Assembly: GCA_004796425.1 (NCBI GenBank)
Contig: QZLB01000097.1
Coordinates: 1-64,000 of the forward strand
DNA length: 64,000 nt
Direction: 5' to 3'
Origin: Desulfobulbaceae bacterium
GTDB lineage: Bacteria > Desulfobacterota > Desulfobulbia > Desulfobulbales > Desulfocapsaceae
The first letter of the stretch is position 1. The number at the start of each line of letters is the position of its first letter. Under the pieces are notes generated by a model. That model was not told the DNA's origin and did no database searches. It saw nothing but the letters and a program-made list of their open reading frames with translations. A program made the position numbers and the translations under genes. Positions 24,341 through 41,606 of the stretch are shown piece after piece.

Positions 24341-25485
24341 AAGTTTCCTACTATTGCCAGCATGTTCTGGGCGTTGGTCATCTGCACCGAAGTCTTGAAA
24401 TTTGTCGGGCGCTTGGCAAGAGATTCCAGGTCGAAATGATCCTTGGCGGGCCAGAGTCAAATCTGGACGCACCCGGGGTACAGTTCCACCAGTTGCCCGG
24501 GCTTAGAATGGACCGAACCTTTTCAGGCCTTGAAACATGTGACCCGGCTGCCAGTCTGGAAACGGTCAAAGCGCAACGGCAACAGCAACTCCTGGATCAT
24601 ATTACGCAGAACAGACCAGATATCGTTGTCCTGGAGCTTTATCCATTTGGGCGAAAGCAGTTTCGCTTTGAGCTCGACCCGCTCCTTGAGTGGCTCAGTA
24701 GCGATAGTCCTCATACTTTGATTTATTGCAGCCTCAGGGACATCCTGGTAGAGAAAAGTGAGGGGCAGGATAAATTCGAGACGCGCGCGGTGCATACCTT
24801 CAATCGCTTTTTTGACGGACTGCTCGTGCATGCCGACCCGCAGATTGTCACGATAGATGAAACATTCACCAAGAGTGATCAGCTCAAACCAGAGATTTTT
24901 TACACAGGCTTTGTCACCCCGCACCCCTCGCCCCAGAGAGCTAATGAAATTCGCAGAATCACCGGCACCAATCAACAGAAGAAACTCATCGTCGCCAGTA
25001 TTGGTAGTGGTAGTGTTGGAGAAGAACTTCTGTTCAGTGTTGCGCAGGTTCATGCCTTGCTCTCGGAGGAAGGTGTGGTTACCCAGATATTCACCGGCCC
25101 CTATCTGGACCAGGCAGATTTTAACCGACTCAAAACAATGACTTCAGACTCTTTAAGGATCGACCGGTTCACCCCCCATTTCATTGATTGGCTTCTTGCT
25201 GCAGATCTGTCAATTTCCATGGCTGGATATAATACGACAATGAATGTGCTCGCCGCCCGGACACCGGCGCTGATGCTCCCTTTTGCCCAGAACCGAGAGC
25301 AGCAGATGCGGCTCGAACGTCTCGTGCCGCTCAGTGGAATTTCACCGCTGACCAGGGAGCAACTGGAACCCACCCAGTTGCACGAAATTATTGAACAACG
25401 ACTCAACGATGAGCGCTACAAAAGTGAGGTGAACCTCGACGGTGCCGAAAACACCAGAGATTATCTGATAAAAAAGCTGCGATGA
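24337..25485 (+). CDS. GT-B glycosyltransferase, paralogue of the first cassette gene
   Basis: This 382-residue protein repeats the layout of the gene at 21176: N-terminal VSYYCQHVLGVGHLHRS, a DIVVLELYPFGRKQFRFEL segment that corresponds to the KEPLG region of its paralogue, LIVASIGSGSVGEE at the inter-domain hinge, and DLSISMAGYNTTMNVL with the GY-N-T donor loop. It is coupled by ATGA at both ends. The pairing of two such transferases with GT4, phosphatase and deacetylase suggests stepwise assembly of a lipid-linked or secreted glycan. The donor sugar cannot be read from the sequence. Confidence 0.85.
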   Translation: MKVSYYCQHVLGVGHLHRSLEICRALGKRFQVEMILGGPESNLDAPGVQFHQLPGLRMDRTFSGLETCDPAASLETVKAQRQQQLLDHITQNRPDIVVLELYPFGRKQFRFELDPLLEWLSSDSPHTLIYCSLRDILVEKSEGQDKFETRAVHTFNRFFDGLLVHADPQIVTIDETFTKSDQLKPEIFYTGFVTPHPSPQRANEIRRITGTNQQKKLIVASIGSGSVGEELLFSVAQVHALLSEEGVVTQIFTGPYLDQADFNRLKTMTSDSLRIDRFTPHFIDWLLAADLSISMAGYNTTMNVLAARTPALMLPFAQNREQQMRLERLVPLSGISPLTREQLEPTQLHEIIEQRLNDERYKSEVNLDGAENTRDYLIKKLR

Positions 25486-26279
25486 ACACAAAACCTTCAG
25501 AACTATATGGTGATTATTCACCCCATAAGTCAGAAAAGCTGATTGAACAATTCGCTACCTCATTGGAACAACGGTCAAAACCGGTACCGGTCTTTTTCAG
25601 GGCCGATGATATCGGGGTCTCCTCGCAGAACTTTTCCCGCCTGCTGAAACTCTTTGAGCATTACGAAGTACCGCTCTGCCTGGCGGTGGTACCAGGTTGG
25701 CTGACCGATACAAGAATGAAAACACTCCGGGCCATTTGTGACCCGGAATCAGAGCTTTGGTGCTTCCATCAACATGGTTGGCTTCACCGGAACCACGAGC
25801 AGCAGGGAAAGAAATGTGAATTTGGCAGCTCACGTCACACCGATGACATAACGCATGATTTGTTAAATGGTAAACGGCGGCTCGAATCGATTTTGGGAAA
25901 TACGGTATTCCAACCCTTTTTCACCCCTCCATGGAACCGTTGCAGCGATGAAACCATAGACCAACTAGCCGCTCTGGGGTTTAAAGGCATCTCCCGTGAT
26001 CAAGCAAAAAGAAAGAATCCGTCGCTGCTACCGGACTTCGCAATTAATATTGATCTGCACACCAGACGCGAGCAGAGCGCTGATTTGGGGTTTGCAGCAC
26101 TTGGTCAGGAACTAATGAGAGGACTTGAACAAAATATGCTGGGTTTCATGATTCACCACCAGCGAATGAATGATCACGCTTTTGACCTCCTGGCAAGAGT
26201 CCTTTACCAATGCCAGTGCAACAGACTGATCAACCCCGCACATTTTACTACCCTGTACAAACGCTCCAGCGCTCCATAA
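25482..26279 (+). CDS. Polysaccharide deacetylase-like protein
   Basis: This 265-residue protein has a compact NodB/CE4-like fold: FFRADDIG supplies the catalytic and metal-binding aspartates, LCLAVVPGW the second strand, WCFHQHGWLHRNH the metal histidines, and FTPPWNR the substrate loop. There is no signal peptide, so it should act in the cytoplasm on a glycosyltransferase product or sugar-lipid. It closes the coupled cassette (start overlaps the upstream stop by ATGA). The following permease gene starts about 160 bases downstream with no terminator in between. Confidence 0.85.
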   Translation: MNTKPSELYGDYSPHKSEKLIEQFATSLEQRSKPVPVFFRADDIGVSSQNFSRLLKLFEHYEVPLCLAVVPGWLTDTRMKTLRAICDPESELWCFHQHGWLHRNHEQQGKKCEFGSSRHTDDITHDLLNGKRRLESILGNTVFQPFFTPPWNRCSDETIDQLAALGFKGISRDQAKRKNPSLLPDFAINIDLHTRREQSADLGFAALGQELMRGLEQNMLGFMIHHQRMNDHAFDLLARVLYQCQCNRLINPAHFTTLYKRSSAP

Positions 26280-26437
26280 GGGGGATTGACACCTCCTCGT
26301 AATTCCACTGTTTGAAGTGAAGATCATTGACAAGACAAACAATATGCAGATAGTATGCAGAATGCGGATACCCCTCAAATGATCGGTATCTCGCACGATT
26401 TTTCTTTTTTTCAGCCCTTGTCATTTCGGTGAGTTTT

Positions 26438-27088
26438 ATGAAGCGACTGATCGCCCTGCCGTTTCGAAAATCTGTAGAAATTGCCTTTCTTTCAATTCGT
26501 GTCAGATTTTTTCGCTCACTGGTAACCACCATGAGCCTGGTATTGGCTGTTGCGTTTCTCTGCTTTATGCGCAGCTCCAATGATTTTGCCCAGGGTTTTC
26601 TTGCCACCGGCAGTGTCGAAGCATACCAGGCGATAGTCCAGGCTGGTTATGATGTTTCCCTTGAGACCATGACTATTGCAGCCAGCGCCAAACAACGCTG
26701 GATTGTCACCCTTTCTCTGCTGGTATGTATTGTGGGAATAATAAATGCACAACTGATGTCTGTAACAGAACGGTTTAGGGAAATCGGTACCATGAAATGT
26801 CTTGGTGCACTCGATCGTTTTATCGTTCGTTTATTTATTTTGGAGGCTTCCATGCAAGGACTTGCCGGTTCTCTCTGTGGAGCCATCATCGGCACAATGG
26901 CTGCTGCGGCCAGTGCCCTATTATCTTTTGGCACTGGAGCGCTTTCCACTGATGCGCTCCAGCCACTGGCAGTCTCCATCGCAATTTCCGTGGTCACGGG
27001 TACCTCCCTGAGCCTGCTTGGTGTTATCTATCCAGCGATTATCGCGGCCAGGATGCAACCTGTTGAGGCAATGAGAGTTGAGCAATAA
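26438..27088 (+). CDS. Mini FtsX-type ABC permease without periplasmic domain
   Basis: The protein of about 216 residues has four hydrophobic segments: one near residues 25-45, then three of the FtsX permease core (about 85-105, 130-160 and 180-205). VTERFREIGTMKCLGA is the coupling-helix region typical of MacB/LolC proteins, and YPAIIAARMQPVEAMRVEQ is the usual end. The large periplasmic MacB_PCD domain that normally separates helix 1 from helix 2 is reduced to about 40 residues. ATG 26438 is preferred over GTG 26429 because GGTGAG precedes it. It likely pairs with the ATPase at 27120 and the giant permease at 27857. Confidence 0.85.
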   Translation: MKRLIALPFRKSVEIAFLSIRVRFFRSLVTTMSLVLAVAFLCFMRSSNDFAQGFLATGSVEAYQAIVQAGYDVSLETMTIAASAKQRWIVTLSLLVCIVGIINAQLMSVTERFREIGTMKCLGALDRFIVRLFILEASMQGLAGSLCGAIIGTMAAAASALLSFGTGALSTDALQPLAVSIAISVVTGTSLSLLGVIYPAIIAARMQPVEAMRVEQ

Positions 27089-27119: not shown

Positions 27120-27854
27120 ATGAAGAAAAAACAGATCGTCAGGGTGAGTGGGGTAACAAAAAATTTCGATCTCGGAAAGATTGTCGTTGAGGTCCTCAAA
27201 GGCATTGATCTTGAGATTGAGACAGGAAAGTACCTTTCTATTATGGGTCCCTCCGGCTCAGGTAAGTCTACACTTTTTAATATGATCGGAGGACTCGACA
27301 AACCGACATCGGGCAAAGTTTTCATCGATGAAGTAGATATTGCCCAACTTGACGCCTATGAGCTCGCCTGGCTTCGCTGTAGAAAAATCGGCTATATCTT
27401 CCAGACCTTTAATTTGATACCGGTCATGACTGCGCTGGAAAACGTAACCCTGCCCATGACTTTTGCAGGCTTGAGTAATGACGACGCGGTTGAACGAGGC
27501 ATGGAGCTTCTTTTTCAAGTCGGTCTCGAAGGGCGACACTCACATAAGCCTTCGGAGCTCTCTGGTGGGCAACAGCAGCGTGTTGCGGTGGCCCGGGCTC
27601 TGGCCAATACTCCGGCGATTATCCTGGCGGATGAACCAACAGGAAACCTTGATCTGACCACCGGCGAAGATATTATCAACCTGCTCAAAGAACTGAGCAG
27701 AGAACGAGGGGTAACCGTTATATCAGCAACCCATGATTACAAAATGCTCAATGTATCTGATCAGGTGGTATGGATTAGAGACGGCCGGGTTGACAAAATA
27801 CAGGATCGTTCCGACCTGGATATCAAGACAGGCGGCCTTACCGAGGAACGCTAA
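27120..27854 (+). CDS. ABC transporter ATPase, LolD/MacB type
   Basis: This 244-residue ATPase has Walker A GPSGSGKST (43-51), Q-loop YIFQTFNLIPVMTALENV, signature LSGGQQQRVAVARA (147-160), Walker B IILADEPTGNLD (167-178) and the H-loop in SATHDYKM. The FNLIPVMTALENV segment is characteristic of ATPases working with FtsX-type permeases (LolD, MacB, FtsE). Such pumps do mechanical work across the periplasm rather than classic transmembrane transport. It is placed exactly between the two FtsX-type permeases, two bases before the larger one. A heterodimeric complex with both is inferred. Confidence 0.95.
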   Translation: MKKKQIVRVSGVTKNFDLGKIVVEVLKGIDLEIETGKYLSIMGPSGSGKSTLFNMIGGLDKPTSGKVFIDEVDIAQLDAYELAWLRCRKIGYIFQTFNLIPVMTALENVTLPMTFAGLSNDDAVERGMELLFQVGLEGRHSHKPSELSGGQQQRVAVARALANTPAIILADEPTGNLDLTTGEDIINLLKELSRERGVTVISATHDYKMLNVSDQVVWIRDGRVDKIQDRSDLDIKTGGLTEER

Positions 27855-27856
27855 TT

Positions 27857-30800
27857 GTGCAGCCCATGACCATGTGCAAGAGACCAGTCTTTCTAACACT
27901 GCTGTTTTTCTGCCTGAGCATTTACAACTCAGGCGGGCTGAGTAGTGCACATGCCGAGGATCAACTCCCTTTTGAAGTCATCGAACAACTGGCAGCATTG
28001 AAAGATCGTTCCATCGGGACGGAGGGTAACGCTCAGGCTGCAGATTATATCAGCTCATATTTCACATCGCTGGGGCTTGAGCCTCAAGATTACCTGTTTC
28101 AAGTACCTACCAGAAAAGTAATCAATGCCCATATTTCAATAGCAGAGAAAAAGGGTGCACTTAAGCCACTGTTTAATAACGCTGTAACACCTCAATCGAC
28201 CGGTCTCTCTGGGCTGACAGGCCCACTTTATTTTGTGGGTGACGGAAACCTTAGCGATCTGGATGGCAAACTCATCGAAGGTTCCATCTTGGTGATGAAT
28301 TTCAACTCCGGACGACAATGGCTCACCGCCGCCTCCCTCGGGGCACAAGCCGTCATTTTCGTAGACCATGGTCATACCAGATCAAATGCGTTTTTCATTG
28401 AGAAAGAAGAGCTCTCCCCACTTCAGTTTCCCTGTTTCTGGATGACATCAAAAGAGGCTGAGCTGCTGTTCGGCCCCCTGTCGAGCAAAAATGGATTGAT
28501 CAGCAACCAGGTTGAGATCCTTTCTTCCGTCGTCTGGGAAACGGTCACCAGCAAAAACATCTATTGTTTGATCAAGGGTAGCGATCCACAACTCAGCGAA
28601 AAGTTGCTGATTATTGAAGCGTTCTACGATTCAACCAGATATGTGGAAGGCTCAGCACCCGGTGCCGATGAAGCGGTCTCCATCAGCAATCTATTGGGGC
28701 TTGCCCACTACTTCTCAAACAATCCACCCAAACGGTCAGTACTGCTCATTGCCACCAATGGCCACGCCCAGGCGCTGCACGGTATGCGCGACGTGATCTG
28801 GAGCTTACAGGAGCGGAGCAAAGTTTTACGGGACTATCGAAAAGAGCTGAGAAACACGATAAAGGCAGCAAAAAAGCGCATTGCAACGCTTACCTCGCTC
28901 TCCTTCCCGCTGGTCCCTGATCCAGATCGAGATCTTATCATTTCCAGTGCCATCATGGACGATCTGAAGATGGAGGTAGATCGTATTTCCCGGGTACTGA
29001 TGAAACTCAGGCTTGAGAAAGATGCAAGCTCGGCAAACAAATCGCTCATCACGGAGCTTGCCGACCAACGATTCACTCTGCGTAAACTCAGTTGGAGAGA
29101 ACAATTCAACGAGATGCCCGATGATGAGCGTACCTATTTCAAAAAGATAATATCACAAGCACTGATCACCCTTGAAAACCGGATCATAGACAATACCAGG
29201 GAGTTGGAGTCGCTGGAATCAGCGATGGATTTCAGGCAATTGTGCAGGGATTTTACCATTGATGCAGTACTTTCACTTCACCTGTCAAGTCACGGCGAGG
29301 GGATTGGCGGATTTCATCGTGGTTGGCTCTATCGGCTCAGATCCCGAATCAATCGAACCGGTATATTCAGTACCATCGGCCAGGTTTTTAGCGATGCGGC
29401 AGCCCAACTACCCACAACCGAAATCGTCGAATATATTGACACCCTTCGCCCCTCCCGACTCAGAAGCTGGGATTCCTATTTTATTGACAAACCTTTTCTC
29501 GGTGGTGAAATCAGTTCCCTGGCGGGCTACATCGGCGTCAGCCTGGTAACCGTTGGAGATGGCCGTACTCGCTGGGGCACACCGTGGGATACCGTAGAAC
29601 ACCTTGATAAACCGTACCTGGAAGCACAATATCAATTACTTCGATCGATGGTCTCGGCCACCGCCGATGCACCTGCGCTGCATGCTGATCTCTTTCCCCG
29701 CAATGGGTTCTCAAGCGTACGCGGCACCAGCAACTTGCTACTCCAGGGTGAGTTATTCGCCGACTATCCTGCAGAGCAGACGATCCTGCTCTCCTACCAG
29801 GGAATAGCCAAGCTCTATTCTTCAGTCAACAGCAATGGTACCTTTTTGTATAAAGGGATCGCCGACTCTAAAAACGTTCTGGATAAATTGATTATCGAAG
29901 GCTATCGGTTTGACCCTGTAAGCGGTGAGATCATCTGGGCTATCGATAAAAAAGAGACGGGCAAAACCAGTTATCGTGTAAAAATGTTGCGCCGAGCTAT
30001 GAAAACCCGATTGATTATGTTTGCCTGTAATCAAACCACCGTCTTTGATCTACTTGAGCCGCGGAGCCTCGATTATATGACCAAACTCTACCTCTTTGAC
30101 GGTAGAAGAGATGCGCCACCACAACGTTACTGGTACAGCAGAATCGATACCCGCCAATCGAATATCTCCTCGATCTATCTGGAACCGGGTTCCTGGTTGA
30201 AACTCACCCTCTCAGATAACGTTATAACCAGAAAGTTGATCCTCTCAAACGGTAACAAAAAAGTACCACTGGGCTTTGGATATCCGGTTGAAGAGTATCC
30301 CGCAATCATCCATACCGCATACCGTTCTGCCATGGATGCTTGGACTCTGCTGCTGCCGCGCATTGAGAATCTGGAATCGCATGGTATTTTCGATGAACGA
30401 ATCAACAACTTGAAAAACAGAGGACTCTCAGCACTGAACACAAGTACACAGCAACTCAAGGAGCTTAACTACACCGCTTTCAGAGAGCAGGCATCAGCTT
30501 CCCTGGCCCTGGCTGCCCGGGTTTATACTCAGATTGAAAAAACCCAGAAAGATGTATTGTTCGGAGTGCTATTTTATATTGCGCTTTTTGTCCCTTTTGC
30601 CTTCTGTATGGAACGATTTCTTTTCAGCTATGCCAACATCTATAAAAGAATTGTCGCATTTTCACTGATACTGACCAGTCTGATTCTGGTGATATATAAC
30701 GTCCACCCTGCCTTTGATCTGGCCTATAGTCCCATGGTGGTGATTCTGGCCTTTTTCATCATTGGTTTATCCCTGCTGGTCACCCTGATCATTTTCTTTC

Positions 30801-32692
30801 GTTTTGAAGAGGAGATGATCCTGTTGCAACGACACGCCAGCCAGATGAGTGCCGCAGAAATAAGCCGTTGGAAAGCATTTGTTGCTGCATTTTTCCTCGG
30901 GGTATCAAATTTGAGACGCCGGAGGATGCGCACCATACTCACCTGCACCACCTTGATCATCCTGACTTTTACCATCATGAGTTTCACCACGGTGAAATCG
31001 AACCAGCAGGAAAACAGGATGTTCTTCAATGATGAGACACCCTACCAGGGACTGCTCCTAAAGAAACTGAGCTGGAAGTCGATGCCCCCCCAGGCCGCCG
31101 CTATCCTTGAAGGAAGTATGGAATCAATCAGTTCACCGGCACAACGAGTGTGGCTTGAGGCCTCTGATGTAACACGAAGTGTTCATGTCCCCCTTCGCTA
31201 TCAGGGCAACAATTTTGTGCTTAATGGCCTCATTGGCCTCGGCTATCAGGAAGCGGACGTCACCGGTCTCGACCAGATCTTGAGCCGTGGCAGATGGTTT
31301 AAACCAACTGATCACCAGGCGATCATTCTGTCTGATAGAGCCGCGACCACCTTACAACTGGATTTCTCTGAAACACCCGTCATCGACCTTTTTGGTACAC
31401 CGTTCACGGTGATTGGCACCTTTTCTGGAGAACTCCTTGATCGCACCTTTGATCTTGATGGCGAGCCTCTTACACCAGTAATTTTCCCCGATGAAATGCA
31501 GCAGAATATGAGTGATGCAGAATTTGAAGCACTTGAGTCGGGAGAGGATGTCAGAAATTTGCAGTCCAGGTATTCCCATATCCCGGGAGGCTCAACTGCC
31601 ATTATTCCTGCGCCCACCTTGCTGGCCATGGGGGGCGAGCTGAAAAATATCGCTCTGAGATCAAATGATGAACTGCCACCTGCCAAAATTGCCTCCACCC
31701 TTGTTGATCGATTCAGTTTAGCAATTTTTGCGGGTGACCAGGATGGTGTCTGGCTCTACAACCTCAGTGATACCATGGCATACTCCGGTGTACCCAACAT
31801 CATCATCCCCTTGCTTATCTCGATTCTGATTGTTTTGAATACCATGATCAGTTCCGTCTATGAGCGAAAGAACGAGATTGGTATCTATACCTCTGTTGGC
31901 CTGGCACCATCGCATGTGTCGTTTCTCTTCGTCGCCGAAGCAATGGCCCTGGCAGTTATTTCCGTGGTGCTCGGTTACCTGGTTGCCCAGGTTTCCGCAG
32001 CGCTGCTCTCTGACACTCGCTATTGGGAAGGAATTACCGTCAATTACTCTTCACTTGCCGGCGTTGCCGCAATGCTTCTGGTAATCGGAGTCGTCTTGAT
32101 TTCAGTAATTTACCCTTCGAGAGTTGCCGCTCGGATTGCCATCCCCGACGTCAAACGTTCCTTTAAGTTGCCGGAGCCGGTCAACGACCAGGTAACTGTT
32201 ATGTTGCCGTTTTTCATGAAATATGAAGAACACAGCTCCATCGGTGGGTACCTCCACACCTTCTTCAGTGGCCACCAAGACATTTCCCATGGCAGGTTTT
32301 CCACCGGATTTATCGACCTGCTTCACACCTGTGCCACTGTTGATGAAATTGGCCAGGCTATTAAGAGCTCTGCAGACCCGTGCGCCTACCACTGTGTTCA
32401 TCTAAGATCACGAGTCTGGCTCTCACCATTCGATTTTGGCATCATGCAGTTGATCGACATCCAATTCTGCCCTGCTCGAGATAATCTGGAGTTTCTGGAG
32501 ATCAAGATCTCAATTAAAAGAGAGTCGGGAGAAAAAAGCCAATGGCAACGAATTAACAAATTGTTTATTCACGAATTAAGAAAACAGCTGCTGATCTGGC
32601 GATCCCTCGATGCTGGCCAGCATGAAGCGTATGCTCAACATTTTCAATCTATTTCAGAAGCACCATTAACACCGCAAAGTACAAATGACTAA
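27857..32692 (+). CDS. Giant fusion: degenerate M28 peptidase domain plus FtsX-type ABC permease
   Basis: The 1611 residues run in this order: signal peptide (1-33), PA-like domain (115-205), M28 peptidase fold (240-310 and 460-600) interrupted by a helical insert (315-450), beta-rich domain (605-800), coiled coil (830-895), three membrane helices (900-985), an FtsX core with helix at 1023-1045, periplasmic MacB_PCD-like part (1050-1310) and three helices (1312-1425), and a cytoplasmic tail (1430-1611). The zinc ligands of M28 are lost: the first His is F256, the EE pair is H303-A304, and the last His is G574, so it should bind rather than cut peptides. VYERKNEIGIYTSVGLAPSHV is the coupling helix. 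GTG at 27857 follows GAGG at 10 bases; ATG 27866 is an alternative. Confidence 0.85.
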   Translation: MQPMTMCKRPVFLTLLFFCLSIYNSGGLSSAHAEDQLPFEVIEQLAALKDRSIGTEGNAQAADYISSYFTSLGLEPQDYLFQVPTRKVINAHISIAEKKGALKPLFNNAVTPQSTGLSGLTGPLYFVGDGNLSDLDGKLIEGSILVMNFNSGRQWLTAASLGAQAVIFVDHGHTRSNAFFIEKEELSPLQFPCFWMTSKEAELLFGPLSSKNGLISNQVEILSSVVWETVTSKNIYCLIKGSDPQLSEKLLIIEAFYDSTRYVEGSAPGADEAVSISNLLGLAHYFSNNPPKRSVLLIATNGHAQALHGMRDVIWSLQERSKVLRDYRKELRNTIKAAKKRIATLTSLSFPLVPDPDRDLIISSAIMDDLKMEVDRISRVLMKLRLEKDASSANKSLITELADQRFTLRKLSWREQFNEMPDDERTYFKKIISQALITLENRIIDNTRELESLESAMDFRQLCRDFTIDAVLSLHLSSHGEGIGGFHRGWLYRLRSRINRTGIFSTIGQVFSDAAAQLPTTEIVEYIDTLRPSRLRSWDSYFIDKPFLGGEISSLAGYIGVSLVTVGDGRTRWGTPWDTVEHLDKPYLEAQYQLLRSMVSATADAPALHADLFPRNGFSSVRGTSNLLLQGELFADYPAEQTILLSYQGIAKLYSSVNSNGTFLYKGIADSKNVLDKLIIEGYRFDPVSGEIIWAIDKKETGKTSYRVKMLRRAMKTRLIMFACNQTTVFDLLEPRSLDYMTKLYLFDGRRDAPPQRYWYSRIDTRQSNISSIYLEPGSWLKLTLSDNVITRKLILSNGNKKVPLGFGYPVEEYPAIIHTAYRSAMDAWTLLLPRIENLESHGIFDERINNLKNRGLSALNTSTQQLKELNYTAFREQASASLALAARVYTQIEKTQKDVLFGVLFYIALFVPFAFCMERFLFSYANIYKRIVAFSLILTSLILVIYNVHPAFDLAYSPMVVILAFFIIGLSLLVTLIIFFRFEEEMILLQRHASQMSAAEISRWKAFVAAFFLGVSNLRRRRMRTILTCTTLIILTFTIMSFTTVKSNQQENRMFFNDETPYQGLLLKKLSWKSMPPQAAAILEGSMESISSPAQRVWLEASDVTRSVHVPLRYQGNNFVLNGLIGLGYQEADVTGLDQILSRGRWFKPTDHQAIILSDRAATTLQLDFSETPVIDLFGTPFTVIGTFSGELLDRTFDLDGEPLTPVIFPDEMQQNMSDAEFEALESGEDVRNLQSRYSHIPGGSTAIIPAPTLLAMGGELKNIALRSNDELPPAKIASTLVDRFSLAIFAGDQDGVWLYNLSDTMAYSGVPNIIIPLLISILIVLNTMISSVYERKNEIGIYTSVGLAPSHVSFLFVAEAMALAVISVVLGYLVAQVSAALLSDTRYWEGITVNYSSLAGVAAMLLVIGVVLISVIYPSRVAARIAIPDVKRSFKLPEPVNDQVTVMLPFFMKYEEHSSIGGYLHTFFSGHQDISHGRFSTGFIDLLHTCATVDEIGQAIKSSADPCAYHCVHLRSRVWLSPFDFGIMQLIDIQFCPARDNLEFLEIKISIKRESGEKSQWQRINKLFIHELRKQLLIWRSLDAGQHEAYAQHFQSISEAPLTPQSTND

Positions 32693-34685
32693 GACAGCAC
32701 ATCAGGTCAATCGCTCAATTCGTTTACGAGCCCCCATACTGGGGTTGCTTCTGTCCTGCTGGATTTGCCTGGTTACACCGCTGAACAATATCTACCATAA
32801 GTCAACCCCGCTGGGTGGCGGGCACTTTCCCCTGGCACCTTTTTTCATTTTTTTCATTCTGGCAATTCTCATTTCGCTGCTCGCCTGGCTGTTCAGAAGA
32901 AGAGTTCTGCTCTCCGGCTCTGAACTATTGCTGATCTGGATACAGATGGTGATCGGCTCGGGGATCGCCTATACCGGCTTTGCCCGCACCTTTCTGATCA
33001 ACTTGACCGCTCCGATCCATTTTGCCACCGTATCAAACCAGTGGGAAGGCCAATTTCTCCCTTTGCTTCCCGCCCGGTTAATGCCCGATTCAAATGAGGC
33101 AATCACCCTGCTTTACAACGGAATACCTGGCGGCAGATCCATGGGCTGGCTTGAAACCCTGCAAGCCATCCCCTGGTCACCCTGGGTTACCCCACTTCTA
33201 CAGTGGGCACTCTTCCTTGGCGTCTCATACTTTTTGATGATCTGCATTATTAATCTGCTCTCACGTCAGTGGATACTCAACGAGCGGCTCAATTTTCCGT
33301 TATTAAAAGTCCCGCAGCTCATTGGCGAAGCGATTGATACCGGAGGAATCCGCGGATTTCTGGGCAACCGTTTCCTGCTGGTCGGGTTGGCGATACCGCT
33401 CTGTCTTCACCTGATGAATGGATTGAATCTTTACTATCCTTCCATTCCCCATCTCCCAACCGTAATTCTTGCCGGATCATATTTCCCCAAAGAGGGGTTC
33501 CTCTCCGGTTTTTACAAGTTGAAGATCTACCTCTACCCCGCGTTCATCGGTTTTGCCTTTCTAGCCTCCCGACAGATCTCATTTTCGTTCTGGTTCTTTT
33601 TTCTATTGGGGGGACTGGTTTATGGCACTATGAACATGCTGGGGTACACAATACCGGCTTCTGAACTGGGTATTACCTTTGGTCCAACACTTACCAAGCC
33701 AGAAGAAATGCAGATGATCGGCGCCTATGGTGTATTTTTCTTTTTTCTCATCTGGCTGGCCCGACATCATCTCACTGATGTTACCAAACAATCGTTTCTG
33801 ATGGCGCCGCCGGGTGACAAAAATCCCGTCGAATGGTTCGATGTGCGCATTTCATTCTGGGGCACCGTCGCCGGAGCCCTGCTACTTGCAGGCTGGTTCA
33901 ATTACCAGGGGGTGAGCTGGACCACGGCCCTGCTATTGGTCGCTTCATTTTTTATGATATCGGTGGTCGTAACCAGAATTATCTGTCAGGGAGGACTTGC
34001 CTATTTCACCCTGACCGCCGCACCCATGGATGGTATTTCAAGTTTGTTCGGCACCAAATTCCTTGGCGGCACCAACGGTTTACTCGGTGCCATGAGCCAA
34101 AAAGTACTGTTCGTCGATTTCCGGGAATCTCTGATGCCGTCCCTGCTCCATAGCAAAAGTGTCACCGCGAAAAACCATAATGTTCTCCTGGTGGTATCAG
34201 CCTTGGCTCTAACCATTGGCTTTGCGGTGATCAGCTCTCTGGTCGCAATGATGGCCCTCTGTTATCGGTTCGGCATTAGAGAGCTTGACCTGGAATGGGC
34301 TTCACGCACCACGCTGAACGTCTATGAGAACGCCTACCGGCTGGTCACCAACCCGGTACCGTCAGGTGACTGGGTACACACCTTTATTATTGTCGGTGTG
34401 GTGGTGATGATTGTCCTTGTGCTCTGTTATCAGCGACTGTACTGGTGGCCTCTCCATCCAATTGGTTACCTGACGGCTTACAGTTCAGCAATGCGGATTC
34501 TCTGGGTGAGCTTCTTTTTCGGTTGGTTATTCAATACGCTCTGTATGAAGTACGGAGGGGTACAGTTATTTAGAAAGATGCAATTGTTTTTTATCGGCAT
34601 GATCATCGGGGATTTCCTGATGGGAGGAATATGGGCAATTATCGGCCAGTATACTTACACCAGTTATATGGTATTGCCAGACTGA
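32685..34685 (+). CDS. Large polytopic membrane protein, DUF6785-like
   Basis: This 666-residue protein is extremely hydrophobic, with more than a dozen predicted helices. RQWILNERLNFPLLKVPQLI at about residue 190 resembles the W...ER(L)xFPL motif of DUF6785/DUF6784 membrane proteins, mostly known from planctomycetes and not characterised. These are distantly similar to oligopeptide (OPT) transporters. The start overlaps the giant permease gene by eight bases, indicating translational coupling. The next gene, another polytopic protein of equal size, starts seven bases after its stop. Transport of a peptide- or lipid-like substrate is possible but not shown. Confidence 0.75.
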   Translation: MTKTAHQVNRSIRLRAPILGLLLSCWICLVTPLNNIYHKSTPLGGGHFPLAPFFIFFILAILISLLAWLFRRRVLLSGSELLLIWIQMVIGSGIAYTGFARTFLINLTAPIHFATVSNQWEGQFLPLLPARLMPDSNEAITLLYNGIPGGRSMGWLETLQAIPWSPWVTPLLQWALFLGVSYFLMICIINLLSRQWILNERLNFPLLKVPQLIGEAIDTGGIRGFLGNRFLLVGLAIPLCLHLMNGLNLYYPSIPHLPTVILAGSYFPKEGFLSGFYKLKIYLYPAFIGFAFLASRQISFSFWFFFLLGGLVYGTMNMLGYTIPASELGITFGPTLTKPEEMQMIGAYGVFFFFLIWLARHHLTDVTKQSFLMAPPGDKNPVEWFDVRISFWGTVAGALLLAGWFNYQGVSWTTALLLVASFFMISVVVTRIICQGGLAYFTLTAAPMDGISSLFGTKFLGGTNGLLGAMSQKVLFVDFRESLMPSLLHSKSVTAKNHNVLLVVSALALTIGFAVISSLVAMMALCYRFGIRELDLEWASRTTLNVYENAYRLVTNPVPSGDWVHTFIIVGVVVMIVLVLCYQRLYWWPLHPIGYLTAYSSAMRILWVSFFFGWLFNTLCMKYGGVQLFRKMQLFFIGMIIGDFLMGGIWAIIGQYTYTSYMVLPD

Positions 34686-34692
34686 TACGATT

Positions 34693-36651
34693 ATGTACGA
34701 CGACAAGGAACTAAAAGAATATCGGGATCTGCTCCCGACTCCTGACCATTTCGAAGAAGGGTTCGACTGGAAAACCATTGTCGGCGCCATTTTTATCGGC
34801 TTCCTGATGATGCCCGGTTCCATGTACCTGCAGTTGGTCATTGGTCAGGGAATCGGACCGGCTGCTCGCTGGGTAACCATTATCCTGTTTGCGGAAATTG
34901 CCAAAAGAGCCCACTCCGATCTAAAGCAGCAGGAAATTTTTCTCCTCTATTACATGGCTGGTGCGGCCCTTGCCTCTCCTTTCTCGGGACTGCTCTGGAA
35001 CCAGTACCTGGTCCAGTCAGACGCCGCTAAAATGTTGGGATTGACCGAATATATTCCAACCTGGGTTGCACCAGGACCTGAATCGATGTCCATGATAGAG
35101 CGGACCTTTTTCCATCGTGACTGGATGATTCCCATCCTGCTCCTGGTGGGTTCACAGATTATTCAACGGATCGATCATTTCGGGTTGGGATATGCGTTGT
35201 ATCGTATTACTTCCGATGTTGAAAAACTGCCCTTCCCCATGGCTCCGGTTGGTGCCCTGGGAACCATGGCGCTGGCTGAATCGGCAGAAGAAAAACAATC
35301 GAGCTGGAAATGGCGGGTCTTTTCAATCGGCGGGGTAGTCGGTCTGGCGTTCGGGGCAATATATGTATTGCTGCCCATTGTGTCGGGGCTGATCTTTACC
35401 GAGCAGATCCGCTTAATTCCGATACCCTGGATTGAATTGACTTCACATACCGAAGATGTCCTCCCGGCGGTAGCCACCGGACTGCAACTCGACCTCGGCC
35501 TGGTCTTTGTCGGTATGGTTCTACCGTTCTGGGCAGTAATCGGCGGTCTGATCGGTTTGATCATCACCATAATCCTGAATCCAATCCTCTACGCCCAGGG
35601 AATTCTCCATCGCTGGCACCCGGGAATGGCCACTGTGGATACGGTCTTTGCCAACAATTTTGACTTTTATATGAGCTTTGGTATCGGGCTGGGTCTGGCC
35701 ATCGGTGTCATCGGCATCTATTCCGTTGTCAAATCTATCAGGCAGTCAACCGCCAATCGAGGAGACTGGAAAGCGTTGTTCAATCCCCCGCCGGGAAGGG
35801 GCGACTTCAATTTTTGGATATCAATTGGCATCTATGTTTTTTCAACGCTTGCCTATGTCGGGCTGTGTGTCTGGCTGGTACCGACATTCCCCTGGATTTT
35901 CTTCCTGGCCTACGGCTTTATTTACACGCCGGTTATCTCTTATATTACCGCCCGGATGGAAGGTATCGCCGGCCAGTTTGTCAGCCTGCCGCTGGTCAGG
36001 GAAGCAAGTTTTATTGCCGGTGCGCGCTTTTTTGGCTACCAGGGTATCGAGATCTGGTATGCACCAATTCCGATCCATAATTATGGAGAGGCAACCGTCC
36101 AGTTCAGACAGATCGAACTTACCGGTACTTCCATCAGGGGGATCATTAAGGCTGAAATTATCGTCTTCCCAATTGTCATGGTGGCCAGTCTGCTGTTTTC
36201 ACAATTTATCTGGCGACTTGCTCCCATTCCCTCTTCGAGCTATCCCTATGCCCAGGAGCTTTGGCATCTCCAGGCCCTCAATACCCTGCTGATGCAGACC
36301 TCGACGCTGGAAGGCAACTCGCTCTTTTATCAGGCACTAAATGGTACCACCGTAATTTCCGGGGTGGGATTTGGTTTGCTGGCCTATGTTGTTTTGAGTT
36401 TTTTCGGCCTCCCGGTGCTGCTCATATACGGGGTGGTTAGAGGGTTGGGCCAATCGACCCCCCATGGTCTCATTCTCGAAGTGTTCGGCGCCCTGCTCGG
36501 GCGGTATTATTTTATTAAAAAATACGGCCCCATGTGGCGCCAGTACGCGCCGGTGCTGCTGGCTGGGTTTTCCTGCGGTATGGGCTTAACCGGTATGTTT
36601 GCCATGGGCTTTGCTCTGATCATGAAATCGTTGAACCATATGGCTTACTGA
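34693..36651 (+). CDS. Large polytopic membrane protein, OPT/DUF6784-like
   Basis: The 652-residue product has about 14-16 hydrophobic segments. DHFGLGYALYRITSDVEKLPFPMAPVGA at about residues 160-185 resembles a region of OPT-family oligopeptide and siderophore transporters and of uncharacterised peptide-transporter-like proteins in planctomycetes. It shares with its upstream neighbour the size, hydrophobicity and an (E)xLxFP motif, so the two may form a heterodimer that arose by duplication. It is packed between that gene and the exporter gene. The substrate is unknown; peptide import or export is an inference from family resemblance. Confidence 0.75.
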   Translation: MYDDKELKEYRDLLPTPDHFEEGFDWKTIVGAIFIGFLMMPGSMYLQLVIGQGIGPAARWVTIILFAEIAKRAHSDLKQQEIFLLYYMAGAALASPFSGLLWNQYLVQSDAAKMLGLTEYIPTWVAPGPESMSMIERTFFHRDWMIPILLLVGSQIIQRIDHFGLGYALYRITSDVEKLPFPMAPVGALGTMALAESAEEKQSSWKWRVFSIGGVVGLAFGAIYVLLPIVSGLIFTEQIRLIPIPWIELTSHTEDVLPAVATGLQLDLGLVFVGMVLPFWAVIGGLIGLIITIILNPILYAQGILHRWHPGMATVDTVFANNFDFYMSFGIGLGLAIGVIGIYSVVKSIRQSTANRGDWKALFNPPPGRGDFNFWISIGIYVFSTLAYVGLCVWLVPTFPWIFFLAYGFIYTPVISYITARMEGIAGQFVSLPLVREASFIAGARFFGYQGIEIWYAPIPIHNYGEATVQFRQIELTGTSIRGIIKAEIIVFPIVMVASLLFSQFIWRLAPIPSSSYPYAQELWHLQALNTLLMQTSTLEGNSLFYQALNGTTVISGVGFGLLAYVVLSFFGLPVLLIYGVVRGLGQSTPHGLILEVFGALLGRYYFIKKYGPMWRQYAPVLLAGFSCGMGLTGMFAMGFALIMKSLNHMAY

Positions 36652-36679: not shown

Positions 36680-39250
36680 ATGGCTGACACCGACATCACA
36701 AAACGCTCTTTATTTTACTGGGTTTATAACCGGTATCGAGGACTCCAGGTCCTGCTTCTGGTGATTATTGTGGTGAGCCTGTTTTTCAGGGTATTTCCGC
36801 TGGAGATGCAGCGACGAATCATCAATGTCGCTATCAACCTGAAAATGATCGACAAGCTCTATCTCTATTGTGTGCTCTATATGGGTGCAGTGCTGATCGC
36901 CGGTCTGCTGAAATATCTAACAAATACCATGCAGATGATGATCGGGCAGAAAATTCTGATCGGTATGAGAAAAGAGCTTTATCAGCATATCCTCCAGCTA
37001 CCGCTACCCTTTTTTCACCGGACACAAACCGGTACGATTATTTCCGCGCTCACCGCCGAACTCACGGCCATCGCAACCTTTCTGGGAGGCGCACTGGCAG
37101 TGCCGATCACCTCTATCCTGACCTTTTTCACTTTCCTGGGGTTCATGATCTACCTAAACCCATTGCTGGGTCTCTTGACCATGTTGATCTACCCCTTCGA
37201 AATGGCTGTTATCCCGCTCCTTCAACGCTGGTATAACAAATATAATCGCAAGCGTGTTGCCACCACTCGGACCCTGGCCTCAGTTGTGAATGAGTCGGTC
37301 ACCGGTATCCATGAGGTGCAGGGAAATGCCAGCTATATCCTTGAGCAGGGAAAACTTGATCGCTTGGTTAAAAAAATCTACTCGCTCATGACCAAGCTTT
37401 TCATTTTCAAGTATGGCATCAAGTTCAGCAACAACCTGTTCCAATCCATTGGTCCCTTCCTGCTGTTTCTCATTGGTGGGTACATGGCAATCCATGGAGA
37501 ATTTACCATTGGGGCACTGGTGGCCTTTCTCTCTGCGTATGAGAAAGTCTATGACCCGTGGAAGGAGGTGATTGAGTATTACCAATCGTACCAGGATGCC
37601 CGGGTACGCTATAAACAGATCATGACTCTCTTTGCGTACCAGCCGGAATTCCTGCTTGAGCCTCTTGAGAAGCGAGAAGTATTCAATCTCAAAGGTGAAA
37701 TTTCAGCAACCAACCTGAACTATTGGGTCAACGATAGTGTCCAGCTGCTGCAGGATATCTCGTTTCAGATCAAGCCGGGCAATCATGTTGCGCTTGTGGG
37801 CTTCTCCGGATCCGGTAAAAGTACCCTGAGCCTGCTGTTGAGTCAGCTGTACCGTATTTCTTCGGGTTCACTGAAGATTGATAATCACGAGATATCCGAT
37901 TTAACGAAACGTGACCTGGCTCGAAATGTCGCCAACGTTGCACAGCACCCGTTTATCTTTACCGGCACCGTTCGCGACAACCTCCTCTATGCGAGCAACA
38001 CACTCCAAAAAGATGGCTTGATTGAAGCCATTCCTTCACCGCAGGAACAGATGGAGATGATCAGGGAAGTGGGACTCGAAGAGGATACGCTGCGTTGGGG
38101 GTTACGCTCAGTAATTCCACTGGAAAAAGCTGCTCAGATGCGTGAGTCCTTTCTGAAAATGCGAGAAGTAATCCACCATGAGCTGCGTAATGAATTCACC
38201 CAGGCCATTGAATTCTATGATGCCCATACATTTCTTCACCATCAGCCCATCGCCACTAACCTGATTTTTGGAACTTATGGTGGTGCGTATCATGTGGATA
38301 AATTCATCACGAACCAGCAATTCAGAAGTTTTCTCTCGACCACAGGGTTGGAGAAAAAACTGCTCGACCTCGGCTTGATAATCGCCCGTTCGACCATCGA
38401 GTTTTTGGGTGATTTTCGTGCTGACGAATATTTCTTTCAAGGATCACCAATGAGTCAGGCTCGCTTTGATCACTATGAAGCGCTGGTAAAGCGAGCTGCA
38501 AAAATTGAATTTGATCAATTAAAAAGCAAAGAGTTAGAATCATTCCTGCAGCTTGCCCTAGATTTCACGCCGGGGATTCATAAAATCCACACCCTGAACA
38601 AACAATTTGAAGATGATATTCTCCGTGGTCGAAGCCAATTCCTGAAACAGGTGGCAGACATCGACCTGGATGAATGTCGTGATGGTGCGATCCAAACAGC
38701 CATTCTGCCCATCAGCGACATTGAAAAACAGGCCCGGACAACCACCAGCTACACCCCGTTCTGCTTTAACCAGTATCTCTTTAACCGAACCCTTCGGGAT
38801 AACATTTTGTTTGGCACCGTGATCAACCAGGAACTTATCAGAGAAAAGCTTGGCACACTGGCTCTTGAGGTATTCAAAAAACACGGCCTGCTGGACGACA
38901 TCATGGAAATCGGTCTGGATTTTCATGTCGGAAGTAAAGGGGATAATCTCAGTGGCGGCCAGAAACAAAAACTGGCTCTGGCTCGCGCCTTTCTGAAACA
39001 TGCCCCCATTCTTATTATGGATGAGGCAACCGCCAGTCTTGATAATCGATCTCAGGCGCGAATACAGAACTATATTGAGACAAGATTACGCGGTAATACC
39101 ACAGTAATTGCAGTGGTGCACCGGCTTGACATGATTTCTGGATATGACCATATTATAGTCATGAAAGATGGTAAAATTGTCGAAGCCGGAAACTATCAAA
39201 ATTTGATAGAACAACAGGGGGTTCTTTATGGACTCGTCAATGACAGCTGA
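36680..39250 (+). CDS. ABC exporter with split nucleotide-binding domain
   Basis: The 856-residue protein has a six-helix exporter domain (about 20-300) and an ABC domain with Walker A GFSGSGKST (374-382), Q-loop Q422, then GTVRDNLLYA (429-438). The signature LSGGQKQKL comes only at 757, with Walker B ILIMDEATA (777-785) and H-loop H814. Normal exporters need about 80 residues between Q-loop and signature; here it is about 330. Within the insert the pattern N-hydrophobic3, then GL, then GL nine residues later occurs three times (N434/G465/G474, N527/G556/G565, N708/G736/G745), suggesting triplication of the helical subdomain. All core ATPase residues are intact. It follows the OPT-like gene by 28 bases. 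Confidence 0.88.
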   Translation: MADTDITKRSLFYWVYNRYRGLQVLLLVIIVVSLFFRVFPLEMQRRIINVAINLKMIDKLYLYCVLYMGAVLIAGLLKYLTNTMQMMIGQKILIGMRKELYQHILQLPLPFFHRTQTGTIISALTAELTAIATFLGGALAVPITSILTFFTFLGFMIYLNPLLGLLTMLIYPFEMAVIPLLQRWYNKYNRKRVATTRTLASVVNESVTGIHEVQGNASYILEQGKLDRLVKKIYSLMTKLFIFKYGIKFSNNLFQSIGPFLLFLIGGYMAIHGEFTIGALVAFLSAYEKVYDPWKEVIEYYQSYQDARVRYKQIMTLFAYQPEFLLEPLEKREVFNLKGEISATNLNYWVNDSVQLLQDISFQIKPGNHVALVGFSGSGKSTLSLLLSQLYRISSGSLKIDNHEISDLTKRDLARNVANVAQHPFIFTGTVRDNLLYASNTLQKDGLIEAIPSPQEQMEMIREVGLEEDTLRWGLRSVIPLEKAAQMRESFLKMREVIHHELRNEFTQAIEFYDAHTFLHHQPIATNLIFGTYGGAYHVDKFITNQQFRSFLSTTGLEKKLLDLGLIIARSTIEFLGDFRADEYFFQGSPMSQARFDHYEALVKRAAKIEFDQLKSKELESFLQLALDFTPGIHKIHTLNKQFEDDILRGRSQFLKQVADIDLDECRDGAIQTAILPISDIEKQARTTTSYTPFCFNQYLFNRTLRDNILFGTVINQELIREKLGTLALEVFKKHGLLDDIMEIGLDFHVGSKGDNLSGGQKQKLALARAFLKHAPILIMDEATASLDNRSQARIQNYIETRLRGNTTVIAVVHRLDMISGYDHIIVMKDGKIVEAGNYQNLIEQQGVLYGLVNDS

Positions 39251-39764
39251 AAATAATACAGAGCACAGCGCATGCAGAATTTCATGCGACTCTGAGTTTT
39301 TAAGGAAGTCCGCAACCTTCTCAGGAGTCAGTCCCGAAGTTATCAAGCTCTTCGCCTATCTGTCCTCCCGCCGCAGTTTTAAAGCCGGTGACTATCTCAT
39401 AGCGCAAGGGGAAAAAGCAAATCAGGCATTTTTTGTGGTCAAGGGAACCGTTGAGATAACGGTACACCATCGTAACAAGGAAATTGTCCTCCAAGAACTC
39501 GAAGCACATGCCTTTTTTGGTGAACTTGCCCTGTTGGCAAAATTTCAGTGGTTTTTCAATGCCCGGGCAAAAGATGATCTTGAGGTGATCGTGATTGATC
39601 AGAAAACGTTTCAGAAGGTCATCGAAAAATTTCCAGAGAGTAAAGATTTGCTCACCGAACGGGTAATCCAGGCGCGGGTTGACAGACTTGTCCAACAGAC
39701 AGCGTTCATGATTGATACGTTCCTTGATCCGGAAGCAGACAAATCCTCTGCTGCAATCGTATAA
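39228..39764 (+). CDS. Cyclic-nucleotide-binding domain protein
   Basis: This 178-residue protein consists of one cNMP-binding (CRP-like) beta-roll at about residues 30-150, with FKAGDYLIAQGEKANQAFFVVKGTVEI and FFGELALLAK, the last being the phosphate-binding cassette region though without its usual Arg (FFGELALLAKFQWFF). There is no DNA-binding helix-turn-helix, so it is not a CRP-type regulator. The gene overlaps the exporter gene by 23 bases and has GGGG eight bases before ATG, so it is probably made with it and may regulate the exporter by direct binding. The ligand is uncertain. Confidence 0.85.
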   Translation: MDSSMTAENNTEHSACRISCDSEFLRKSATFSGVSPEVIKLFAYLSSRRSFKAGDYLIAQGEKANQAFFVVKGTVEITVHHRNKEIVLQELEAHAFFGELALLAKFQWFFNARAKDDLEVIVIDQKTFQKVIEKFPESKDLLTERVIQARVDRLVQQTAFMIDTFLDPEADKSSAAIV

Positions 39765-39765
39765 A

Positions 39766-40365
39766 ATGAAATTCTTCGTACTCATATTCTGGTTACTCTT
39801 GATCACTGCCCTCAGCACTCCTTTACACGCCACCACCGAAGGAGTGCCAAAGGAAATTGCAGGCTTTCGGCTCGGTGAAGATATCACCGATTACCAGGAG
39901 ATTGAGTATTCCGATTATTTAAAAAACGTGGTGATAATGGACTGGCATGGTTTTAAGAAAGGAGTCCTGTCCTATGGGATTTGTGCCTACCCGGGCAAGA
40001 TCGTGCGGATTACCATGAAATATGCTGACTCCACAAAACCGTTTTATAACAAGCTGTTAAAGAAGTTTAAGCAGAAATACGGCAAACCAACCGAGTGGGG
40101 TGGTGATGCCTTTGGTATCCTCTTTAAGTGGAAATGGGTCTTTCTGGATGAGCAAAACGAGCGGGTGACCCTGATCCTTCAGCACAACCTCCAGGATCAT
40201 AACGAAAATATCGGTACCGTAATGAAACTTACCTACCCCGAAAGAATCATTGATGAGCAGGCCTGTTTCATTGAGCAGTGTGAGATAAATAAGAGTCAGG
40301 AAGAAAAAGCAAAGCTCGAGAAACGGTCTGAGACGAACTGGGATTATCTGATACCAAAGCAATAA
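39766..40365 (+). CDS. Secreted protein of unknown function
   Basis: This 199-residue protein has a clear signal peptide (MKFFVLIFWLLLITALSTPLHA) and a mature domain with PKEIAGFRLGEDITDYQEI, a G-x-R-L-G start often seen in small periplasmic alpha/beta proteins, then strands such as GICAYPGKIVRITMKYAD and FKWKWVFLDEQNERVTLIL. The end has a Cys-x5-Cys pair (QACFIEQCE). No family is recognised. It begins one base after the preceding stop, so it belongs to the same transcript. It may be the periplasmic partner of one of the pumps; this is only inferred from position. Confidence 0.75.
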   Translation: MKFFVLIFWLLLITALSTPLHATTEGVPKEIAGFRLGEDITDYQEIEYSDYLKNVVIMDWHGFKKGVLSYGICAYPGKIVRITMKYADSTKPFYNKLLKKFKQKYGKPTEWGGDAFGILFKWKWVFLDEQNERVTLILQHNLQDHNENIGTVMKLTYPERIIDEQACFIEQCEINKSQEEKAKLEKRSETNWDYLIPKQ

Positions 40366-40366
40366 C

Positions 40367-41233
40367 ATGCTCGAACCTGCGGTTACACCATCCCGTGTCT
40401 GCTGGAACGGCCTCTCTTTTCATCTCGATCCGGGATGCGAAGTCACCATCAAGAACGACAGTCACCTGATCATCGAACACCAGCTCTCTCCACTGGCAGA
40501 AATCAGATGGTCAATCACCGGTAAGAAGAAACGAAATAAGAATTTTCAAAGCCTGGACCGCGATCTCAGTGCCAAATATGAGCGGTTGAAAATTTCTGAT
40601 ATATCGCGATTTCAAACGATTAGCAGTAATTTCGAACTGGCCTCTTATCGAACCAATCATGGTGAGCATCGGGAACTGGTGCTGGCTCTTCAATGTAAAA
40701 GCTGTGGCACCAATTATCTGCTCCATTGTGCAGATTCCCAAGAACAATCCAAACCGATCGTAACCCTTTATGAGCAGTTGAGTTGTACCCATCCAGGGAC
40801 AGTCCGAAATCAGGTTTGGCAGATCCAGGATTTCTATTTTCTTGTTCCACAAACCTTCTCCCTGAGCTCACAACGGTTTTCTCCAGGAAATTCTATCCTC
40901 ACTTTTACAAATGGCCCCACCATCCTTTACTATGGTCGGATTGTTCCGACCCTGGCCGGTTCGCACCAGGAAGATTACGCAACCCTCTTCTGCTCGCTTA
41001 CCGGGCTTCGACAGGACCAGCTTGTCGAAGAAAAATCGACTTTCTCCGGGCTCAACACCCCTTCCCTGACAAGTCGAATAGCGACCCTTTTACATCGTCG
41101 AAAGATTTTCCAGTGGGGACACGCTCAGATTTTTGAAGATCATGATCGATTCCTGGTCGTTTCTCTCCAGAGCAGGAAGCGTATCGATACGGATTTACAA
41201 AATAGATTATCAAATGGTTATGGGCTTATTTAG
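40367..41233 (+). CDS. Unrecognised protein in the transporter locus
   Basis: The 288-residue product has no signal peptide or membrane helix and no family I can name. It shows alternating short beta strands, a CKSCG motif (C110, C113) with C121 nearby that could bind metal, and a repeated overall pattern in two halves: LSFHLDPGCEVTI near residue 16 and FYFLVPQTFSLSSQRF near residue 155, each followed by a short strand and a polar loop. It starts one base after the preceding stop and overlaps the next gene by 14 bases, so it is coupled on both sides. Two tandem similar domains are possible. Confidence 0.7.
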   Translation: MLEPAVTPSRVCWNGLSFHLDPGCEVTIKNDSHLIIEHQLSPLAEIRWSITGKKKRNKNFQSLDRDLSAKYERLKISDISRFQTISSNFELASYRTNHGEHRELVLALQCKSCGTNYLLHCADSQEQSKPIVTLYEQLSCTHPGTVRNQVWQIQDFYFLVPQTFSLSSQRFSPGNSILTFTNGPTILYYGRIVPTLAGSHQEDYATLFCSLTGLRQDQLVEEKSTFSGLNTPSLTSRIATLLHRRKIFQWGHAQIFEDHDRFLVVSLQSRKRIDTDLQNRLSNGYGLI

Positions 41234-41606
41234 AAAGAAGAAACCGCACACACCAATGCTCACCCGGGAACAGTCACTTGCGTGTCGGCCATTTCACAAT
41301 GACGTGACCAGCTGGGAAGAGACATCGGAAGGGCTTATCCGAATCCAATATGAACTCCCGCTTTCACCTTTTCTTTCAGCGATCTTCAGCAAATTTACCG
41401 CCTCTCAAGCAAAACGCCCGATGCGAACGCTTGAACTAGACAAAATGGGCAGCGTGGTCTGGAAAATGATCGACGGGGAAAAAACGGCAGCAGAAATAAT
41501 TTTGGAATTCGCCCGCTACAATAACATCACCAATCAGGAATCAGAGCAGGCAATCACCCTATTTTTCAGACAACTCGGTAAGCGGGGGTTAATTGGGCTC
41601 TTCTGA
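41220..41606 (+). CDS. PqqD-like (RRE-type) protein
   Basis: This 128-residue protein ends in a PqqD-like domain (about 65-128): RTLELDKMGSVVWKMIDGEKTAAEIILEFA, the usual hydrophobic-G-...-W-..-DG-T-...I pattern, followed by a helix and KRGLIGLF. PqqD-type domains bind leader peptides of modified peptides (RRE) and present them to enzymes. The N-terminal 60 residues are basic and not typical. The start at 41220 overlaps the previous gene by 14 bases; ATG at 41214 is an alternative. No radical-SAM or precursor gene is next to it. It ends the locus, eight bases from the convergent glycosylase gene. Confidence 0.72.
   Translation: MGLFRKKKPHTPMLTREQSLACRPFHNDVTSWEETSEGLIRIQYELPLSPFLSAIFSKFTASQAKRPMRTLELDKMGSVVWKMIDGEKTAAEIILEFARYNNITNQESEQAITLFFRQLGKRGLIGLF

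Follow-up and report, generated by a model that had tools for sequence, protein, structure and literature searches.

Organisation of the locus

The window, i.e. the whole stretch of DNA analysed here, covers 64,000 nucleotides (positions 1 to 64,000 of the forward strand) of contig QZLB01000097.1 in the assembly GCA_004796425.1 of a Desulfobulbaceae bacterium, assigned in GTDB to Bacteria; Desulfobacterota; Desulfobulbia; Desulfobulbales; Desulfocapsaceae. All features described below are on the plus strand. An open reading frame at 36680..39250 encodes an ABC exporter of 856 aa with what is, in all likelihood, a triplicated helical subdomain.

The genes upstream of it include a glycosyltransferase and deacetylase set, consisting of a GT28-type glycosyltransferase (21176..22420; PF04101), a GT4-type glycosyltransferase (22417..23703; PF00534), another GT28-type enzyme (24337..25485; PF04101) and a polysaccharide deacetylase-like protein (25482..26279; PF01522/DUF2334). 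They are followed by an FtsX-like permease (26429..27088; PF02687), a LolD/MacB-like ABC ATPase (27120..27854; PF00005) and an M28 peptidase-FtsX permease fusion protein of 1611 aa (27857..32692). Two membrane proteins precede the exporter: a conserved neighbour of the DUF6785/DUF6784 type (32685..34685; PF20581, 7e-160) and a polytopic protein of 652 aa without any Pfam match (34693..36651). Between families of the phylum the latter shares 70-85% identity, which makes it far better conserved than its DUF6785 neighbour (~57-67%).

The stop codon of the exporter is overlapped by a gene for a protein with cyclic-nucleotide-binding fold (39228..39764; PF00027, E 4.9e-21), hereafter the partner. 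Downstream are two conserved neighbours of no known family, one of ~200 aa (39712..40365) and one of 288 aa (40367..41233), and a PqqD-like protein (41133..41606; PF05402, E 9e-7). The PqqD-like gene belongs to the conserved genes of the locus; neither radical SAM nor peptidase-exporter domains were detected in the proteins scanned.

The partner gene lies immediately 3' of the ABC gene in 56 of the 66 loci where adjacency could be tested, and also in the annotated Rhizobiales loci. Its phosphate-binding cassette keeps G98-E99, and the position of the arginine is taken by W108 in the window copy. Tryptophan occupies this position in 37/67 sequences and arginine in 19/67; the Rhizobiales proteins have arginine. 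Because the phosphate-binding arginine is replaced, the window partner may not bind a cyclic nucleotide, and gating by cAMP or cGMP is doubtful there. Partners of the W108 type possibly bind something else, or nothing.

Of 297 Desulfobacterota genomes, 20 encode the triplicated ABC protein; exactly these 20 also encode the 652-aa protein and the M28-FtsX protein, and the first GT28-type glycosyltransferase (that at 21176..22420) has a strong match in the same set. The probability of the exact coincidence is 1.6e-31 assuming independent genomes, which they are not. In some genomes the co-occurring genes are dispersed, and linkage alone therefore does not explain the coincidence. The exporter marks a large gene set co-inherited in Desulfobacterota, the product of which is unknown.

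Domains and ATPase motifs of the exporter

The open reading frame encodes an MsbA-like half-transporter in one piece, with a transmembrane domain fused to a single nucleotide-binding domain (NBD). Pfam recognised PF00664 (E 2.7e-31) and PF00005 (3.3e-28), and the MsbA-like match extends over residues 38-449 and 740-854; residues ~450 to ~740 matched no Pfam family. The transmembrane domain (residues 8-320; 36701..37639) has the type IV exporter fold, as seen in structural alignments to MsbA, TM287/288 and Sav1866, and the structural match to exporters of this type spans residues 8-856. No N-terminal C39 peptidase domain is present, the transmembrane domain beginning at residue 8. The equivalog model for the lipid A flippase MsbA, TIGR02203, scored 322 bits, below its curated cut-off of 602, and peptide exporters are among the best named NCBIfam matches that come next after MsbA.

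Conservation was analysed in alignments of 96 Desulfobacterota homologues, among them one from Desulfopila aestuarii (L042), retrieved by searching with either the insert or the transmembrane domain. The Walker A (GFSGSGKS, residues 374-381; 37799..37822; K380 in 96/96), the Q-loop glutamine Q422 (37943..37945), the LSGGQ signature (residues 757-761; 38948..38962), the Walker B with the catalytic glutamate (ILIMDE, residues 777-782; 39008..39025; D781/E782) and the H-loop are all present, in every one of the 96 sequences. Such perfect conservation leads us to infer that the Desulfobacterota protein is under selection as an ATPase, although no ATPase activity was measured. The full-chain AlphaFold model (pLDDT 88.4) includes an entire ordinary NBD: the NBD of ComA aligned over 239/239 residues at 1.6 A and that of TAP1 over 248/252 residues at 1.9 A. 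The core of the triplicated exporter, as modelled, still folds as a whole ordinary NBD.

Three homologous units between Q-loop and signature

An earlier note, made without database searches, had pointed to a Q422-to-LSGGQ spacing of about 330 residues against about 80 in normal exporters, had traced a repeated N/GL/GL pattern and had proposed two extra copies of the helical subdomain. The long spacing was confirmed, with 335 residues from Q422 to L757. The figure for normal exporters was too high: in the control profile of 23 ordinary exporters from related genomes, Q-loop and signature are 56 residues apart, and Walker A and signature ~104. The surplus in the window protein is ~279 residues. 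A frameshift or assembly error was ruled out as the cause of the long NBD by the identical layout in 96 sequences.

Profile self-alignment, a check that the earlier note had named beforehand, revealed three mutually homologous units. Comparison of their sub-profiles R1, R2 and R3 with hhalign gave P values of 7e-9 for R1-R2, 4e-9 for R1-R3 and 1e-11 for R2-R3, with scores of 44-57; the maximum in 450 column-shuffled comparisons was 19.6, and reversed profiles reached at most 13.9. The entire protein was also scanned blind, as 435 pairs of non-overlapping 75-residue windows with no positions chosen beforehand, and all 25 best pairs fell within the three segments. The ordinary-exporter profile matched R1 at 2e-17, R3 at 1e-9 and R2 more weakly, at 7e-6; the R2 score of 29.3 compares with at most 18.9 among 200 shuffles. 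No significant match in Pfam, PDB sequences or Foldseek was obtained with the extra region by itself.

The N/GL/GL pattern is found three times, at N434/G465/G474, N527/G556/G565 and N708/G736/G745, as had been claimed. The three asparagines N434 (37979..37981), N527 (38258..38260) and N708 (38801..38803), one per unit, are invariant in 102/102 aligned homologues, i.e. the 96 from Desulfobacterota plus six Rhizobiales plasmid sequences. G565 and G745 are likewise invariant, and G465 and G474 are kept in 93-94 of 96; G556 (44/96) and G736 (40/96) are not conserved. Unit 2 has few invariant positions (N527, G565, P590, H634 and R651), and mean column identity is 42% in the extra region vs 66% in the transmembrane domain. 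Outside the helix core we found the conserved patches DEFFF..SPM and LALRF.PG.H.

Predicted structure of the units

Unit 1 (residues 417-506; 37928..38197) carries the live Q-loop, a helical subdomain and a degenerate signature-like helix. Unit 2 (residues 510-658; 38207..38653) is an extra helical subdomain without a live Q-loop that ends in a degenerate signature helix, and unit 3 (residues 691-773; 38750..38998) combines a degenerate Q-loop, a helical subdomain and the live signature helix. Unit 1 alone thus retains the Q-loop glutamine and unit 3 alone LSGGQ, while unit 2 has neither.

The middle unit was also modelled in isolation as residues 499-690, a stretch free of the repeated core of R1 and R3, with a pLDDT of 89.9. 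Foldseek returned nothing significant for it, and its weak list consisted of mixed helical proteins. When Foldseek's candidates were realigned with VIA-align, the top ten were all ABC exporter NBDs, among them HlyB, TAP, TM288, ABCB8, PCAT1 and ComA, with Z 3.7-5.1; the next unrelated fold had Z 2.2. These Z-scores are modest, and the argument rests on a single superfamily standing out in the expected register.

The best match, HlyB (75 residues, 2.9 A, Z 5.1), aligned through its stretch 549-623, which starts at the Q-loop glutamine (about 550), takes in the signature (about 606) and stops where the signature helix ends. HlyB positions were counted from the mutated residues S504, E631 and H662, two of which are named in PDB titles (S504: 3b5j). 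On the model side the alignment runs from residue 514 to 656 and pairs A515 with the Q-loop glutamine and L639 with the first residue of the signature, and the sequence alignment gives the identical register. It is this structural register to HlyB that identifies residues 639-656 (LNKQFEDDILRGRSQFLK; 38594..38647), with the invariant R651, as the degenerate signature helix of unit 2. The signature-type helices of units 1 and 2 resemble each other, with R495 and R651 invariant; their sequence match to the live LSGGQ helix is not significant, so that kinship with the latter rests on structural register in a predicted model.

In the models, each repeat corresponds to an entire helical subdomain, from the Q-loop through the end of the signature helix. 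The proposal of two extra copies is thus supported by profile self-alignment and by structural realignment of the isolated unit, and AlphaFold modelling with structural comparison gave no sign of an unrelated fold for the insert. Its proposed extent had to be refined: the unit is larger than had been suggested, adding a degenerate signature helix, and the live Q-loop and live signature belong to different copies. We consider a tandem triplication of the helical subdomain very likely.

Distribution and apparently inactive relatives in Rhizobiales

The three-unit layout is common to 96/96 Desulfobacterota homologues, with length and order fixed. The survey of homologues for copy number found three units in every member and never one or two. 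Walker A and signature are 360-387 residues apart in 95/96 of them and 495 residues apart in Desulfamplus. This homologue, from Desulfamplus magnetovallimortis (L079, 9890-12877), has ~110 further residues between the two motifs. On its contig C229 (L034, 3413-6494) the source genome carries another triplicated ABC gene, a copy that diverged long ago (41% identity), and this one, too, has a partner gene after it.

Outside the phylum, relatives of the insert were found in 177 records of a plasmid collection, nearly all of them from rhizobia and their kin. In all six Rhizobiales plasmid homologues that were read, the catalytic residues of every ATPase motif have been lost: K380 is replaced by A or G, Q422 by A, S or P, the DE pair by NR and the histidine by S, and the SGG of LSGGQ has become TMV and similar. 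The same six proteins retain the three units, with N434, N527, N708, G565 and G745. Judged by these six sequences, the rhizobial relatives look like pseudo-ATPases.

The rhizobial ABC gene is adjacent to glycosyltransferases that are 35-43% identical to the window set. The counterpart of the first GT28-type enzyme shares 43% identity, that of the GT4-type enzyme 35-37% and that of the second GT28-type enzyme 35%; the deacetylase-like protein has a counterpart in Shinella (Rhizobiales) that is 27% identical. This neighbourhood of the pseudo-ATPase genes is conserved, and it includes a nucleotide cyclase in both R. etli and R. leguminosarum. On plasmid pRL11 of R. leguminosarum 3841, the locus of the ABC homologue (RL_RS29995, with the partner gene RL_RS29990) encodes the cyclase together with a nucleotide sugar dehydrogenase. 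Gene order suggests that the dehydrogenase is likely pRL110056, which has been reported as important for root colonisation (PMC11103875).

That the rhizobial locus might be the glucomannan locus of R. leguminosarum was rejected, as gmsA is RL1661 (PMC11406972). pRL110043, which is needed for root attachment (PMC11406972), is not the ABC protein; by its description it is the neighbouring MFS transporter.

Proposed function and alternative explanations

The anatomy of the triplicated exporter is well supported, and its function is inferred. We propose that two triplicated chains would pair into one ATPase, and that the paired exporter may export or flip a glycan or glycolipid that the GT28/GT4/GT28 enzymes of the locus synthesise together with its deacetylase. 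The two extra subdomains would form a cytoplasmic platform beside the coupling helices and bind a partner, most likely the downstream protein with cyclic-nucleotide-binding fold, or else the glycosyltransferases; the bound partner would gate transport or hand over the substrate. In Rhizobiales, with their dead ATPase, selection would keep the platform and not ATP hydrolysis.

Taken as a whole, this is the explanation to which we lean, by a narrow margin. Its parts are less secure. Export of a glycan or glycolipid is inferred from gene neighbourhood and co-occurrence, and we regard it as no more probable than its contrary; no data on a glycan substrate were found in the open-access literature searched, and the M28 peptidase and the PqqD-like protein of the locus would also suit a peptide. 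The docking or gating platform is also an inference, without any partner-binding data, and the balance tips slightly against it. That the subdomain signals to the membrane domain, as the earlier note had put it, is known for the ordinary subdomain and only inferred for the extra copies. As the layout is conserved across the family and survives in relatives with a dead motor, the extra copies probably have a job of their own. A bolder reading is also possible, namely that we are dealing with a new class of ABC proteins in which tandem subdomains turn the NBD into an assembly platform that would connect the membrane with glycan synthesis and a signalling partner; this role would outlast the loss of the ATPase, as in the rhizobial pseudo-ATPases.

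A more conservative possibility is that the triplication is real and the surplus subdomains are structural padding: with no partner to bind, they would lengthen or stiffen the NBD or bridge to the opposite subunit, and the pump would work like MsbA. It is in keeping with the entire ordinary NBD retained in the full model, with the handful of invariant positions in unit 2 and with the lower identity of the extra region (42% vs 66%). Against padding speak the length and order fixed in 96/96 homologues, the patches DEFFF..SPM and LALRF.PG.H, which resemble a binding surface, and the survival of the units beyond the ATPase in Rhizobiales. It is conceivable, too, that the Rhizobiales protein, and perhaps in part the window one, is no pump at all and acts with the partner and the glycosyltransferases as a sensor or scaffold, leaving transport to the other ABC systems of the locus. 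Catalytic residues gone from 6/6 Rhizobiales sequences while the repeats stay would fit this idea, as would the nucleotide cyclase and the separate peptide-type ABC importer in the same rhizobial operon region, and the MacB/FtsX-type ABC system that the window locus has of its own; the perfect ATPase motifs in all 96 Desulfobacterota homologues speak against it for that branch.

The remaining two alternatives carry less weight. Were the cargo a peptide or RiPP-like product, the PqqD-like protein would present it and the M28 domain would trim it. Both domains are indeed encoded in the locus, and peptide exporters are among the best named matches after MsbA. However, no peptidase-C39 or radical SAM match was obtained in the locus proteins scanned, no precursor peptide gene was seen among the open reading frames read, and the Rhizobiales share the glycosyltransferase set and not PqqD or M28, which makes this cargo unlikely. 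The insert might also be an unrelated helical domain, its apparent repeats a mere coincidence; the extra region alone matched no Pfam family and had no significant hit among PDB sequences or in Foldseek, which could be read in this way. This can be dismissed almost entirely, since the profile self-comparison is far above shuffles and ABC NBDs alone lead the list when the isolated unit is structurally realigned.

Our preferred reading remains that of a triplicated exporter with a putative platform. The helical subdomain passes ATP binding on to the membrane domain, and its signature contacts the opposite ATP. A family with three copies, in which live Q-loop and live signature reside in different ones, lets one ask what the subdomain does beyond catalysis, and the Rhizobiales branch, with a dead ATPase and three intact units, offers a ready-made separation of function. 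Searches of the open-access literature on repeated helical subdomains, the Rhizobium locus and DUF6785 turned up no account of this arrangement.

Comparison with known systems

With MsbA, PglK and Sav1866 the window protein has in common the transmembrane domain, the ATPase core, the catalytic motifs and the half-transporter layout. It differs from them between the Q-loop glutamine and LSGGQ, where they have one helical subdomain of ~56 residues and the window protein has three, in 335 residues. Because the criterion of a single ~56-residue helical subdomain fails, we describe the protein as a variant, and not a plain member, of the type IV ABC exporters; this is shown for its anatomy, and ATP-driven export is inferred.

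The heterodimers TM287/288, TAP and BmrCD, each with one degenerate site, resemble the present family in that loss of catalytic motifs is tolerated in a related lineage. These complexes keep one active site, whereas the chain of the Rhizobiales relatives has lost every motif, and no active partner chain was seen for it in the loci read. A large insertion also separates Q-loop and signature in the helical lobe of ABCF proteins, UvrA and SMC/Rad50. What is inserted there is an unrelated fold, respectively an arm hairpin, a zinc/UvrB domain and a coiled coil. The difference, drawn without a computed comparison, is that the insert of the window protein consists of copies of the helical subdomain itself.
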